DNA of 64,000 nt from Planctomycetota bacterium (GTDB taxonomy: Bacteria > Planctomycetota > MHYJ01 > JACQXL01): positions 434,001 to 498,000 of the forward strand of contig JACRIK010000003.1 in the NCBI GenBank assembly GCA_016235865.1, written 5' to 3'. Under the pieces are notes generated by a model. The model was not told the DNA's origin, ran no database searches, and worked only from the letters and a program-made list of their open reading frames with translations. Below are positions 6,236 to 57,678 of the stretch, one piece after another (within the stretch, counting starts at the first letter, position 1; every line of letters begins with the position of its first letter). Position numbers and translations under genes: made by a program.

Positions 6236-6952
6236 CTATTTGTCCGGCGGTTTTTCCGGAGAGGAAATATTTGGGGTGGGCGATGTCTTTTCCGCCTTGG
6301 AAAGCAGTCGCTTGGTCATTTCTTTGGCAAACAGCAAAATGGTCACAAAGAATATTAAAAAAGCCAGAAAGACTATTATCCGTTTTCCTAAAGTTGGCTC
6401 TTCATCTATAGCCTCATCTGCCGTGGTGGTCTTTGATAGCTGAGAACCTTTGGGAGTTCCGGAAGCCGCAGGTGCCGGCTTCCCGGCGCCCGGCGCTGCT
6501 TTACCTTCCGCTTTCGTGGATGCCACCTCCTGAATAGCCCTCTGAAGCGCATTGCTGGACAATTTGGCCGGCTCGGCTGTGATGGTCTTGTCATCCGATG
6601 CCATTTTCAGCGTCTCTGACTGACCGGCTGGTTGAGCCGGCGCCGGAGCAGATTCCGCTGCCATCTCGCTGTAAGTCAGGGTGGTCCGGCCGATGACAAT
6701 CCGGTCCTTGTCGATTAGCTTGCGCCGCGAGACCTTTTCGCCATTGACGATAATGCCGTTGCGGCTACCCATATCAACCAGCATGAAGGAACCATCCGGC
6801 TCCCGGGTGACTTTGGCGTGCTGCCTTGAGGCGCGCGGGTCGTCGATGAAGATGCTGTTGGCCTTTTCCCGGCCGATAATCCCCTCGGCGCCCAGGGTTA
6901 CCGTCCGCTCGCCGGCGCTTTGTCCTTCGGTTACGATAATTAAACAAGGCAT
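6236..6952 (-). CDS. FHA-domain protein with C-terminal membrane anchor
   Basis: 238 residues. An FHA domain (about 22-95) shows GREKAN, RASRQHA and GSRNGI, the residues that read phosphothreonine. A long Ala/Pro-rich linker follows, then one membrane helix (about 198-216), placing the FHA domain in the cytoplasm. The likely role is to recruit proteins phosphorylated by Ser/Thr kinases. Upstream on the minus strand, TTGACT (6981-6986) and TATTTA (6958-6963) are 17 bp apart. The -10 is 5 nt from the ATG and there is no Shine-Dalgarno, so it may be leaderless, though the -10 is weak. Confidence 0.87.
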   Translation of the reverse strand: MPCLIIVTEGQSAGERTVTLGAEGIIGREKANSIFIDDPRASRQHAKVTREPDGSFMLVDMGSRNGIIVNGEKVSRRKLIDKDRIVIGRTTLTYSEMAAESAPAPAQPAGQSETLKMASDDKTITAEPAKLSSNALQRAIQEVASTKAEGKAAPGAGKPAPAASGTPKGSQLSKTTTADEAIDEEPTLGKRIIVFLAFLIFFVTILLFAKEMTKRLLSKAEKTSPTPNISSPEKPPDK

Positions 6953-7062
6953 AACGTTAAATAATCAATACTACCTAAAAAGTCAAGGAAAATACTGTGC
7001 AGAAACAATAAAGTATCACTTTGGCAATGTCTTAAGCGATTTAATGCGATTTCTTTCCCACA

Positions 7063-7372
7063 CCTGTGCAGATTGATACCCGTAGTGCTGCGGACTAACA
7101 TTCGCATCCCTGTAGACTAACACCCGTATTCCTGTGGACTAACACTCTTAGTCCTGCGGAGTCAGGTTCGTATGCCTGTGGATTAACACCCTTAGCCCTG
7201 CGGAGTCAGATTCGTATTCCTGTGGATTAACACTCTTGGTCCTGCGAAGTCAGGTTCGTATCCTTGTAGATTAACACTCGTATCCCTGTGGACTAATACC
7301 CGTATACCTGTGGATTAAGCCCCTTATACCTGTAGAATAAGGGTCATATTCCGCACCCTTCACAGATAGTGG
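7063..7372. repeat. 22-bp-phased degenerate tandem array 1
   Basis: From 7087 to 7351 there are twelve consecutive steps of exactly 22 bp. Unit starts are 7087, 7109, 7131, 7153, 7175, 7197, 7219, 7241, 7263, 7285, 7307, 7329 and 7351. Most begin CCTGTGGA or CCTGCGGA followed by TTAACAC or GTCAG. An extra unit lies at 7063, 24 bp earlier. The units at 7131-7262 form three copies of a 44-bp dimer. The core TGTGGATTA is one mismatch from an inverted DnaA box. The array occupies the gap between the FHA gene and parB, and G-rich DNA (7373-7420) follows it. Units diverge while the spacing stays fixed. Confidence 0.9.
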
Positions 7373-7428
7373 GCAGGGGATATACGGTTAGGGGGGTAGT
7401 GGGGAGGGGGTGGGGAGTGGTTCAGATA

Positions 7429-7444
7429 TGTTTCTCGTGGAACT
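7429..7444. promoter_or_regulatory. Candidate parS centromere site
   Basis: TGTTTCTCGTGGAACT matches the widely conserved parS consensus TGTTTCACGTGAAACA at 13 of 16 positions. It lies 31 bp beyond the parB stop codon, where ParB-loading sites are often found. Two direct copies of GGTGAGAAACA follow at about 7454-7475 and could be half-sites. It is degenerate for a parS, so a stronger site elsewhere is possible. Confidence 0.5.
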
Positions 7445-7475
7445 ATGCTTTTTGGTGAGAAACAGGTGAGAAACA

Positions 7476-8510
7476 CTACTTTACCTGGTCTAGTTTATCC
7501 AGTATCCTCTGAAAGTCATCCAGGGAGTAGAATGATATAAATATCCTACCCTGCTTGTTATCCTGGGTATAGACACTGACCTTGGTATTAAACTTGCTCA
7601 TCAGGCGCTCTTCTATGTCCCTGACATGGGGGTCTGTAGCCGGAGAGACCTGGGTAGCTCCGTCAAGAGTACCCGGCTTACGCCTCTTGAGCCACCTGAT
7701 GATATACTCCAGGCGCCGGACCGACATACCCTCCCTCTTTATCCTCTGGCAGATCTTTATCTGCAGGGTCGGGTCATTTATGGCCAACAACCCTCTGGCA
7801 TGGGTGGTCGAAATGGTCTCCCTAGCCAGCTCATCCTGGACCTCAGAAGGCAGGTCCAGCAGCCGGATGAAGTTAGCCACCGTAGCCCGGTCCAGGCAGA
7901 CCCGACCGGCGATTTCCTCCTGGGTCAGGTTAAAGAAATTCATCAGCTCCTTATAGGCCCGGGCTCGTTCGATCGGATTAAGGTCCTTGCGCTGGGTGTT
8001 TTCTATCAAAGCCCATTCCAGCATCTTCTGGTCATCCACATCCTTGACAATCACCGGTACCGATCCGACCTTCAGCTCCACGCAGGCCCGCCAGCGCCTC
8101 TCGCCGGCCACAATCTCATAATAATTGACGGCCTGCCCGGATTTGGTCGGGGATTTCCGGACCAGTATCGGCTGGAGCACCCCGGCTGATTTGATGGACT
8201 CCATCAGGTCTGAAAGCGCAGTCTTATCAAAGGTCTTCCGGGGTTGGAAACGATTGGGAATCAGCTGGTCCGTGCGCAACATCAGAACGCCGTCGGAAGA
8301 AGCCGCCGGTTGAATGGCCGGCTCCGGCCGGGGCGGAACAAAACGCTCGCTCGGCGGGCTGATCCCGATATTCATCGGGACGCTAACAATCTGCTCCGGT
8401 TTGGCCGGAACAACCGCCAGTTTGGTTTCCGGAACCGCTTCTTGCTTCTGGGCCGGCTCGTCAAATCCGGCAAATAACCGGTCCAGTCCGCGGCCTAATT
8501 TCTTTTCCAT
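7476..8510 (-). CDS. parB: Chromosome-partitioning protein ParB
   Basis: 344 residues. The N-terminus MEKKLGRGLDRLFAG is the usual ParA-contact peptide. The CTPase/ParB domain carries GERRWRA (136-142) and ENTQRKDLNPIERA (170-183). A helix-turn-helix (about 195-215) reads parS, and a C-terminal dimer domain ends the protein. It loads at parS and slides as a CTP clamp for origin segregation. The linker (about 20-75) includes a segment encoded by a palindromic repeat (8363-8380), absent from typical ParB. It starts 2 bp after the parA stop. Confidence 0.95.
   Translation of the reverse strand: MEKKLGRGLDRLFAGFDEPAQKQEAVPETKLAVVPAKPEQIVSVPMNIGISPPSERFVPPRPEPAIQPAASSDGVLMLRTDQLIPNRFQPRKTFDKTALSDLMESIKSAGVLQPILVRKSPTKSGQAVNYYEIVAGERRWRACVELKVGSVPVIVKDVDDQKMLEWALIENTQRKDLNPIERARAYKELMNFFNLTQEEIAGRVCLDRATVANFIRLLDLPSEVQDELARETISTTHARGLLAINDPTLQIKICQRIKREGMSVRRLEYIIRWLKRRKPGTLDGATQVSPATDPHVRDIEERLMSKFNTKVSVYTQDNKQGRIFISFYSLDDFQRILDKLDQVK
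8363..8380. repeat. Palindrome inside the parB linker
   Basis: TCCCGATATTCATCGGGA has 7-bp perfect arms (TCCCGAT/ATCGGGA). It encodes part of the variable linker (VPMNIGI). Similar palindromes occur at 12757-12773, 13401-13418, 20217-20234 and 61502-61519, so this appears to be a member of a dispersed family that landed in frame. Confidence 0.65.
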
Positions 8511-8512
8511 AT

Positions 8513-9277
8513 TTAACTGCGTTTACCGTATAATATTTCCCGGGTTAATTCCACGTAACCGCTTGTTCCCCTTGATGTTATGTCATACTCAATGGCCGGC
8601 TTGCCAAAGCTGCTCGCCTCGGAAACCGCCACATCGCGCGGTATAATCGCCTTATAAATCTTGTCCGGGAAATGATTTTTTATCTCCTCGAACACCTCTT
8701 TATTATACTGCAGGGAATTATCATACATCGTCAGGACAATGCCTTCAATAAAAAGCGCCGGATTTGAGTCCTTTTTCACCGTCTCGATAATCCGCATAAT
8801 CTGGCTCAGGCCCTCCATGGCAAAATACTCGCACTGAATCGGAATCAGCACCGAGTTGGCCGCGTTCAGGGCGTTGATGGGAATCCGGCCGAAGGCCGGC
8901 GGGCAGTCCATTATCACGAAATCATATTCCCGGCCCAATGACAGCAGCGAGGTCTTCAATCTCTGCGTGCCCATCACCCCGGTCAGCAGCCGGTGTTCCA
9001 GCATGGCCACCATGGGCGATGACGGCATGACCGATAACTTGGCATGGTATTCGGTCTGCTTGATGGATTCCGGCTTGACAATCCCTTCCAGCAGCGCCTG
9101 ATAGGTGCCGAAGAACCTATCCGGCGCGATATTCAGCCCGCTGGTGGCGTTGGCCTGCGGGTCTAAATCAACCAGCAGGGTGTTCTTCTCGGCCAGGGCC
9201 AGGCAATAGGCCAGGTTTATGGCCGTGGTGGTCTTGCCCACCCCGCCCTTTTGGTTGGCAATGGCGATTGATTTCAT
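8513..9277 (-). CDS. parA: Chromosome-partitioning ATPase ParA (Soj)
   Basis: 254 residues, normal length for chromosomal ParA. The deviant Walker [10 protein letters not shown] (10-18) and the MDCPPAFG motif are present. The ATPase forms a nucleoid gradient that moves ParB-parS complexes. It lies directly upstream of parB in one operon, roughly 26 kb from dnaA, which fits an origin-proximal parABS locus. No convincing Shine-Dalgarno site precedes the ATG at 9277 (the upstream sequence reads CGCTGTATTTA), so initiation may be leaderless or weak. Confidence 0.95.
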
Positions 9278-14251: not shown

Positions 14252-15007
14252 TAATCATACCGCGGGGACACACACCAGCTAAACGCAAGGATAGAAAATA
14301 CAGTATGCAGTATACAGGATAAAGCAATACCCCCTCACCCCGCAGCAGGATACCTAAACTATCCCTTAGTGGAGCCCCTCCCCTACCCCCTAAAACCGAT
14401 ATTTTACCCCTAAAATAGGGGGGGGGATACCCCCCCCCAGGTATCCCACCCTTACCCCCCGGTTATCCCTTCCCCCCCCCCTACTACATATCCCCCAGTA
14501 GGGTATTACATATCCCATAGAGGGGTATTGCATATCCCGTAGAGGAGTATTACACTAGTAATTGCAGGGTATTACACTACGGATTGAGGGGTAATTGATA
14601 TCCCTCTTGAACGACAGGTTATCCCTAATGGGATAGATATCCGTAAATTTCTCCTTGACATAAGGGCGGGGTGCTGGATTGTGTCGCATAGAGCGTATAG
14701 TAAAAATGCGGAGTTCGTAAACTCAAAGTGCGAGTAAAAATCCCCCTCACCCGGCCCTCTCCCTCAAGGGGAGAGGGTTAGGGGGCAGGTATTCTTTGTG
14801 CCTTAGTGTCTTTTGAGCGCCATAAGCCCAGTGGGTCGGCACAATCGTCAACACCCACTAAGCGCACCGGGTACATGTTACGTTTAATCCGTATGTGGTC
14901 GGCCATATAACCTAACGTAAAGACGGAAGAACCAAGGAACGTAAGGACGAAGTACACAAATTACGTAGATGAACGCTGATGATTCTTTGTGTCTTAGTGG
15001 CGAAAGA
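14252..15007. other. Gene-free repeat zone
   Basis: No credible gene or RNA gene seen. It contains the 22-bp array 2 (14329-14614), a CCCTCTCCC...GGGAGAGGG hairpin (about 14755-14777), and two direct copies of ATTCTTTGTGYCTTAGTG (about 14790 and 14980). It also holds a GGAAGAACC/ACGTAAGGACG-type repeat (about 14926-14953) similar to one inside the Ser/Thr kinase gene at 50.05 kb. Confidence 0.7.
14329..14614. repeat. 22-bp-phased degenerate tandem array 2 with G/C runs
   Basis: Exact 22-bp steps are seen at 14417, 14439, 14461, 14483, 14505, 14527, 14549, 14571 and 14593. Central units begin ACTACATATCCC, ATTACATATCCC, ATTGCATATCCC or ATTACACTA and end in GGGT. The unit at 14417-14438 is a complete palindrome: A, nine G, ATA, nine C. 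Left of it (14329-14416) the phase is plausible but the sequence is C-rich and less clear. The DNA could form G-quadruplex or cruciform structures. Confidence 0.8.
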
Positions 15008-36940: not shown

Positions 36941-37232
36941 TTTTTGTTGCTTCCGTGTCTAAAAAATGTTATTATTAGGGCTGATTTTCGAGACTAACCG
37001 GGTTGGTTTAGCGTAGGGGTAAATAATCCCCTTAAAGGATAGGGTTATCAACCGATTATAATAAGGTTTTCCACCGCTTATCTACAGTCCGCCTAGATGC
37101 ATCGGTGGGTTAACTAAAGGACGGACCAGCGGTTATATTGGTTTTGCGAGGTTATCAACACCCTGGTAGGCAGATACTAAGACGAATACTAAATATATAT
37201 TAGTTTATTAGATGTATTAGAAGGAGTATTAA
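36941..37232. other. Candidate replication origin (oriC) between dnaA and dnaN
   Basis: 292 bp without a gene. DnaA-box-like nonamers: TTATCAACC (37045-37053, two mismatches), TTATCTACA (37078-37086, one mismatch) and TTATCAACA (37152-37160, one mismatch from TTATCCACA). A weaker TTTTCCACC lies at 37068-37076. An A+T-rich stretch (about 37188-37215) just before dnaN could be the unwinding element. AGAAGGAG precedes the dnaN ATG. Confidence 0.65.
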
Positions 37233-53298: not shown

Positions 53299-53626
53299 AC
53301 TGCCCGAATGAGCCGTTCAGCCCTACGGAGACAATCATTCAGGCCTGTGGTCTCAATCCTCAAGACCTGCGGAGACAGCCGTTCAGGCCTGCGGAGATAG
53401 TCATTCATACCTGCGGTCTTGGCCGTTAAGGCCTCCGGAGACAGCCCTTAAAGGGCGCGGAGCCAGTCCTTAATGCCTGCGGAGACGGCGTTTAATACCT
53501 GCGCCGAGAACCGTCCAGACCGCACCTGTCAGCCCTTAACACCCCCGTTCTGAACCGTTCAAACCTGCGGAACCAGGGGTATCTGGGGATGGGGGATACC
53601 CCCTGGCCCAGACCGGGATACCCCCG
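53299..53626. repeat. 22-bp-phased degenerate tandem array 3
   Basis: Exact 22-bp steps are seen at 53322, 53344, 53366, 53388, 53410, 53432, 53454, 53476, 53498, 53520, 53542 and 53564. Units mostly begin CCTGCGGAGACAG or CCTGTGGTCT. The array then passes into GGGATACCCCC copies at 53593 and 53615, again 22 bp apart. The unit head CCTGCGGAG is shared with array 1, and the GGGATACCCC palindrome with array 2. The whole 467-bp gap (53202-53668) has no gene. Confidence 0.9.
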
Positions 53627-53668
53627 TATCCGGGTAAATGAGGTAAAAACGAGGGTTGCAACCCCTCT

Positions 53669-57000: not shown

Positions 57001-57678
57001 GAACAACTGGATTCTTCAATATTTGAAAAAGTCAACATAGCTTATTAGTAGTACTAAACACCTCCGGCCATGTTTGGAAGGCGTTTTTTCCTAAAACACC
57101 ATATTTTCTCATATAGTAAAATAGGCGTTTTAAGGAAAATAATGCCCTTATCGTGCTTATTGTCAACATAAAACAGGGGTTTTGTCAACATAATCCCGGT
57201 TTGTTGTCAACATAAACGGCTAAAGCCCCATTTTGGCAACCTTGCTTGCCAAAAAAGGCCTCGTTTGGCAAGCGTCCTTGCCAAAATCAGCTAAACATAC
57301 CTCTAAATCAAGCAGGGTTGACTTGTAATACCAGAAGTTCACCTAAGTCAACCTGCCTTATCTTAGCAGGCACTTCTGTGTCGATCTGCTTGCACTGAGC
57401 GTAGCGAATGTGTGGTTCTACCTATTTTATCTGAATTCCCATTTTAGGTGTCACAAAACGCCCCTTGGCTGAATGAGAGGGTGAGAGAGGAGGACGTTAA
57501 AGGTCCTGTGCAGGCCGGCCGGCAGGGACCGATGACGGACTCCAACTTTCCTCCCTAACCCATGCGGGTGGGGAGAACCTCATTAACCTTAGGGCAAGGT
57601 AATCCCGCCATTCGGCGGGATGTAAGAGTTTGTAACTCGCTTCGCTCTAACAAACGCTAACAAAGGGGGTGATAAAAT
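57001..57678. other. Gene-free repeat and hairpin region upstream of the tail-like genes
   Basis: No gene seen. It includes 22-bp array 4 (57160-57225) and TTGGCAA/TTGCCAA inverted pairs (57233-57252 and 57265-57284, a 32-bp repeat). A row of hairpins follows at about 57504-57665: GGTCCTG/CAGGGACC, ATCCCGCC/GGCGGGAT and GTTTGT/ACAAAC. AGGGGGTGAT then precedes the next ATG. Confidence 0.7.
57160..57225. repeat. 22-bp-phased array 4 (three units)
   Basis: TTGTCAACATAA begins at 57160, 57182 and 57204, exactly 22 bp apart, while the second half of each unit differs. It is too short to judge the phase further, but it repeats the 22-bp period of arrays 1-3. Confidence 0.7.

Follow-up and report, generated by a model that had tools for sequence, protein, structure and literature searches.

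A G-capped 22-bp tandem array beside parB in a planctomycete genome is one copy of a dispersed, apparently undescribed element family

The window, the whole stretch of DNA that was analysed (64,000 nt), is contig 3 (C3) 434001-498000 of a 2.67-Mb MAG that is 96% complete (G000). The relatives of its ParB assign it to Planctomycetota, near MAGs labelled Candidatus Brocadiia. The gap between parB and an FHA-domain gene contains an array of 22-bp units (array 1), followed by a G-rich block, a parS-like site and two 11-bp copies of GGTGAGAAACA, which by their sequence appear similar to parS half sites. The window also has two other arrays of the same class (Table 1). Two short period-22 stretches of 2-2.6 units each, at 57160-57216 (TTGTCAACATAAA...) and 37039-37081 (ATAAGGTTATCAACC...), are perhaps remnants or beginnings of arrays.

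Table 1. Features of the window (positions counted from its first base) and pairs or sets of element copies in the genome (G000).
Feature	Position	Strand	Remarks
FHA-domain gene	6236..6952	-	other side of array 1; gene start faces the array
Whole element including array 1	7038..7420	+	bounds set by homology to the sister copy C3:61162-61545
Array 1, 22-bp tandem array	7065..7350	+	13 exactly phased units; approximate consensus CCTGYGGAYTMACACYCGTATC
44-bp A-B-A-B-A-B dimer stretch in array 1	7131-7262		three A-B dimers, six units
G-rich block of the array 1 element	7373..7420	+	GCAGGGGATATACGGTTAGGGGGGTAGTGGGGAGGGGGTGGGGAGTGG; may form a G-quadruplex; most conserved part of the element
parS-like site	7429..7444	+	TGTTTCTCGTGGAACT; between parB and the G-rich block; 2 mismatches to TGTTTCWCGWGAAACA
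Two direct 11-bp copies of GGTGAGAAACA	7454..7475	+	just 3' of the parB stop codon
parB	7476..8510	-	ParB_N, HTH_ParB, ParB_C; array 1 is 3' of the gene
parA	8513..9277	-	AAA_31
Second 22-bp array, same class	14455..14602	+	G/C-tract block 14410-14480; no partner copy found
Third 22-bp array, same class	53304..53524	+	G/C block about 53572-53632; no partner copy found
Copies	199k/341k		91%
Copies	32k/537k		77%; C12 also a copy
Copies	159k/237k		70%
Copies	323k/C12		92%
Copies	126k/C27/C21		88%
Copies	368k/C12		79%
Copies	396k/C30		92%
Copies	269k/C21		70%
Copies	88k/C21		
Copies	347k/C12		
Copies	array behind parB2/C2		69%

The exact 22-bp phasing of array 1, described in the first-pass annotation, is real. 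The autocorrelation of 7063-7372 is 0.61 at lag 22, 0.69 at lag 44, 0.60 at lag 66 and 0.67 at lag 88, far above the highest value reached in 1000 Markov resamplings of the same stretch (0.38, at any lag from 8 to 119). TRF gives periods of 22, 44, 66 and 88, and a repeat search finds 11 registers at exact 22-bp spacing. The count of 13 units at this spacing and the 44-bp dimer repeated three times were both recovered. The units had been placed from 7087 to 7351; the recognisable ones start from 7065 to 7329, since the unit can be made out at 7065 but not at 7351. Array 1 is a minisatellite, with head-to-tail units of constant length that are non-coding (the gap is intergenic, and 22 is no multiple of 3). 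A CRISPR array was ruled out, as there are no spacers and the entire unit repeats.

The fixed spacing had also been likened to that of iterons or a nucleoprotein scaffold, and each consensus unit had been said to carry TGTGGATTA, one base from an inverted DnaA box. The latter was overstated, since exact copies occur in 3 of the 13 units. Although TAATCCACA, one base off a DnaA box, is present in 3/13 units, one-mismatch DnaA boxes show no excess in the window (50 vs 40 expected) and the other arrays of the class have other sequences; a replication origin with iterons or DnaA boxes has next to no chance of being the explanation. A transcribed structured RNA built of 22-nt modules is scarcely more probable. 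Some arrays (C12, 104k, 368k) do have hairpin-like or stably folding units; however, array 1 folds no better than its shuffles on either strand (z +1.3 and +0.35), ten tested stretches show no consistent sign, and there is no Rfam match within the window.

Array 1 belongs to an apparently undescribed family of composite non-coding elements that is specific to the clade. Each element consists of roughly 6-20 units of 22 bp with a conserved G-rich block at one end. The unit sequences drift apart, in most families until no similarity can be recognised, but the unit length stays at 22 and the total length changes by whole units. Over about 384 bp, array 1 and its block match C3:61162-61545 at 88% identity. 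This sister copy lies in the same orientation about 380 kb away beside unrelated genes, and the homology stops at the edges of the element. Throughout the genome, whole elements with 68-94% identity have been copied into unrelated gene contexts (Table 1), which is dispersal of the MITE type. Of the 14 families seeded on contig 3, nine are pairs of known members, two are trios and three are known from a single member; these counts are lower bounds, because some members turned up in passing. Most 22-bp arrays of G000 have one or two related copies, and pairs outnumber singletons, an excess not expected from a simple birth process. A mixture of strains was rejected as the source of the paired copies, as four pairs sit on the same contig. 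No copy of array 1 was found in 40 relatives.

The genome was sampled by stretches amounting to 605 kb (about 23%), with gene calls from a simple ORF picker; short-read assembly of repeats in the MAG may alter unit counts. This sample contains 28 strong non-coding tandem arrays, 27 of which have a period of 21 (six), 22 (19) or 44 (two); the last has a period of 10. All nine non-coding arrays in 416 kb of G005, from another family of the same order, have a period of 21 or 22. The same is true of 11/11 arrays in G003, another genus of the same family, with 44 counted and the sample partly chosen for arrays. In G024, a more distant member of the phylum, both arrays have a period of 21, and G031 has other periods. 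The phase claim survives in a broader form than first proposed, with a 21/22-bp period and unrelated units in other genera and another family. Non-coding 12-bp arrays in G001, of the same family (L275:5065-5291 and L059:1-111), are the sole other period in the family's small samples.

Arrays with a period of 21 form a second non-coding class, mostly without a G-rich block and with more indels (L027:9591-9857, L030:8862-9125, L034:10823-11611, L031:599-851). A 22-bp array is often no more than a few hundred bp away from them, and one pair (C3:293k and C2:111k) is 76% identical. Since 21-bp arrays also occur in the more distant G024 (L069:2187-2432 and L288:6385-6662, both non-coding), this type may be wider in distribution than the 22-bp type.

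Units of different arrays in G000 look mostly unrelated when set side by side. A single common 22-bp motif was apparent in the first circular-motif search; it was due to related copies and was gone after these were merged (score 92.5 vs 86.8, sd 3.7, for block shuffles). Dyad symmetry of the units is significant in few of 29 arrays. An eleven-base sub-period within the units is absent in autocorrelation and weak and unspecific in conservation profiles, and conservation along the 22-bp unit is weakly patchy.

At one end of nearly every 22-bp array stands a conserved G-rich block of the type GGGGGGAGGGGGTRG, in many cases accompanied by GTATAC or TAGTAC and a C-run. Searching for the GGGGGGAGGGGGTRG-type block alone, with one mismatch allowed, retrieved 18 sites in G000, of which 16 abut a 22-bp array. 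The corresponding figures are 5/6 sites in G003, 1/1 site, weakly, in G005, and none in G007 and G002. As a viral control, none of 120 IMG/VR contigs with an exact block match has a 21/22-bp array at the block. Predicted G-quadruplex motifs are found within 150 bp of 22-bp arrays in 11 of 42 cases, about 12 times the expectation (2.1% of the sequence). It is conceivable that the block itself makes the arrays: a G-quadruplex or hairpin would stall replication, slippage or repair with a 21-22 nt step would build the repeats, and the period would be a mutational signature. The direct contact of arrays with G-rich blocks and the period common to unrelated units are consistent with this. However, the copying of whole elements is evident and spares many arrays a de novo origin, and the 21-bp arrays mostly lack the block (G-quadruplex motif at 1/8). 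Slippage or repair at the block is improbable as the source of the arrays.

The spacing was proposed to be kept while the sequence drifts, and the copies agree with this. About 737 substitutions separate the copies in 14 homologous comparisons within G000, with no net non-unit length change; 11 of the comparisons are without gaps, and in the other three the gaps are all small and seem to offset one another inside the array. One copy is short by exactly four units. The two copy comparisons in G003 are messier than those in G000. A census of the 22-bp class (54 arrays, 586 units) gives 2571 differences from consensus and 22 indel runs, which fall in 10 of the 54 arrays, compared with 36 indel runs per 793 differences in the 21-bp class. 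Bacterial indel mutations amount to perhaps a tenth of substitutions, so dozens of indels would be expected if the arrays were neutral. Since the copies carry hundreds of substitutions and essentially no net phase change, the claim of a conserved phase gains support. The results support a constraint on the spacing of 22-bp arrays, to which homogenisation within arrays could contribute.

The reading favoured here, tentatively and at slightly less than an even chance, is that the arrays are minisatellite elements that disperse, and that a protein bound along them with a periodicity of two helical turns keeps their spacing fixed. The two-turn spacing would be under purifying selection because copies of the protein would sit in a row along one face of the array DNA, giving a local nucleoprotein scaffold, and the G-rich block may be the end at which nucleation or mobilisation takes place. 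Against this reading, no motif is common to the units once related arrays are merged, so that no sequence-specific protein could recognise every array, and conservation along the unit is weakly patchy. The positions of arrays, parB excepted, are mostly not conserved between genera, so individual arrays seem to be dispensable. The periods (27/28 and 9/9), the retrieval of arrays by the block, the excess of G-quadruplex motifs, the copying of whole elements and the rarity of indels count for this reading. Homogenisation within arrays counts against it, as this could remove units of odd length without selection.

The main rival is a selfish or neutral mobile minisatellite of the BrickBuilt kind, spread by transposition in trans, with units that turn over by slippage and unequal exchange; the 22-bp unit length would persist by descent and homogenisation alone, and the element would have no host function. 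It would account for the sharp homology boundaries, the sister copies in unrelated contexts, the variation in array position between genera, and the degenerate end units, which are like those of ordinary satellites. The arrays are located in gaps and, counted per intergenic base, favour no gap orientation; a preference for convergent gaps shows up when gene pairs are counted instead (p about 1e-4). However, neutral drift should yield periods of 19, 20, 23 and 24 as well, and 21/22 is fixed across families despite unrelated units. There is also no high-copy family, most having two members, and no terminal inverted repeats or target-site duplications are apparent at the boundaries in the copy alignments. 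A purely neutral or selfish element is possible but doubtful; slippage at the G-rich block ranks after it, and a scaffold specific to ParB comes third.

The association with parB and a parS-like site noted for array 1 is real and recurs at other parB loci. A 22-bp array lies just 3' of parB at five loci: array 1, L051 (parB2 of G000), and L046, L050 and L098 (parB2-type genes of G003, G007 and a groundwater contig). In all five, the G-rich block separates the array from parB. Palindromes of 16 bp with a central ACGT occur 10-26 bp past the array in L051 (TGTGCTACGTAGCACA), L046 (TGTTGGACGTCAAACA) and L098 (TGTCTGACGTCAGACA and TGTTTAACGTTAAACA), and none of this type was found elsewhere in the sampled 605 kb. 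With the site of the window, parS-like sites accompany these arrays wherever the sequence is available. Of the array-flanking genes for which relatives were sampled, parB alone has an array again in the relatives. The parS-like site of the window is 9 bp from the G-rich block, and the genome has only one further site of this kind; its similarity to parS alone is not significant, because a reversed control pattern matches more often than the parS-like pattern.

The second parB of G000 (L051:1495-2382) has no parA beside it and adjoins a D-Ala-D-Ala ligase gene. Behind its array, the palindrome at L051:2725-2740 is perfect over 16 bp, and the gene possibly encodes a paralogous ParB with its own parS variant. 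L098 (JACQXV010000038.1) is a 3.9-kb contig with a planctomycete-like parB, a 22-bp array and palindromes; it is filed under a Woesearchaeota MAG and is probably misbinned.

These loci could represent an extended partition centromere as in sopABC of plasmid F, where ParB would bind or spread along the array. Every unit of sopC holds a ParB-binding inverted repeat. Array 1 is like sopC in its tandem arrangement and in its place, immediately 3' of parB with parS-like sites nearby. However, the units here contain no parS, the parS-like matches lie outside the arrays, and more than 20 sampled arrays of the class are away from parB. No array is found beside another parB2 of G003 or beside parB1 of G005, G006 and G007. 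The latter are the gaps orthologous to that of array 1, whose comparison the first-pass annotation had named as its own test, and its locus-specific claim fails there. Since most arrays are not near parB and the parB1 gap of these three genomes holds no array, a device specific to parAB is unsupported, and an extended ParB centromere is highly improbable. The parB link is real but partial, and it is not a general explanation of the arrays. If protein binding does maintain the spacing, copies beside parB and parS might, as a weaker suggestion, be kept because the scaffold helps the partition complex.

BrickBuilt is a minisatellite-bearing MITE of Porphyromonas gingivalis (PMC4596501). Like BrickBuilt, the elements described here are non-coding, intergenic and dispersed, with fixed-length tandem units near two helical turns (23 nt in BrickBuilt) and a non-repetitive end segment (PMC4596501). 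BrickBuilt has one unit sequence in all copies, two distinct flanks and terminal inverted repeats (PMC4596501), whereas the unit sequences here vary between elements, the shared cap is a G-rich block, most families are pairs and terminal inverted repeats were not seen. The arrays also fall within the 10-200 nt range of the tandem repeats in the prokaryotic satellite survey of Subirana and Messeguer, which includes transposed families in Leptospira and Methanocella (PMC6749651). The surveyed satellites have group medians of 0-3 per Mb and many of those with long units are coding (PMC6749651), whereas a laxer detector finds about 45 arrays per Mb in G000, almost all of them non-coding and with a period of 21/22. 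A text search of that survey found no mention of a 21/22-nt class (PMC6749651). A literature search found no description of such arrays in Planctomycetota.

Intergenic repeats of bacteria usually have a common sequence and a varying period. The arrays described here reverse this pattern, as the period is common and the sequence varies across genera and families. In its most extended form, the proposal is an undescribed class of chromosomal element in an order of Planctomycetota, with selection on the 22-bp spacing and not on the unit sequence. Its members would form a sequence-tolerant, phase-reading, chromosome-organising scaffold that is nucleated by the G-rich block, occurs largely as sister pairs and is recruited beside parS; as a whole this is rather unlikely to hold. 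If selection on spacing is true, the arrays would point to a DNA-binding system that reads helical phase and not sequence. If the period is instead a mutational signature, they would reveal a process that makes repeats next to G-rich blocks in a fixed step of 21/22 nt. Either reading can be tested, and parB and parS, to which some of the arrays are tied, are a place to begin.
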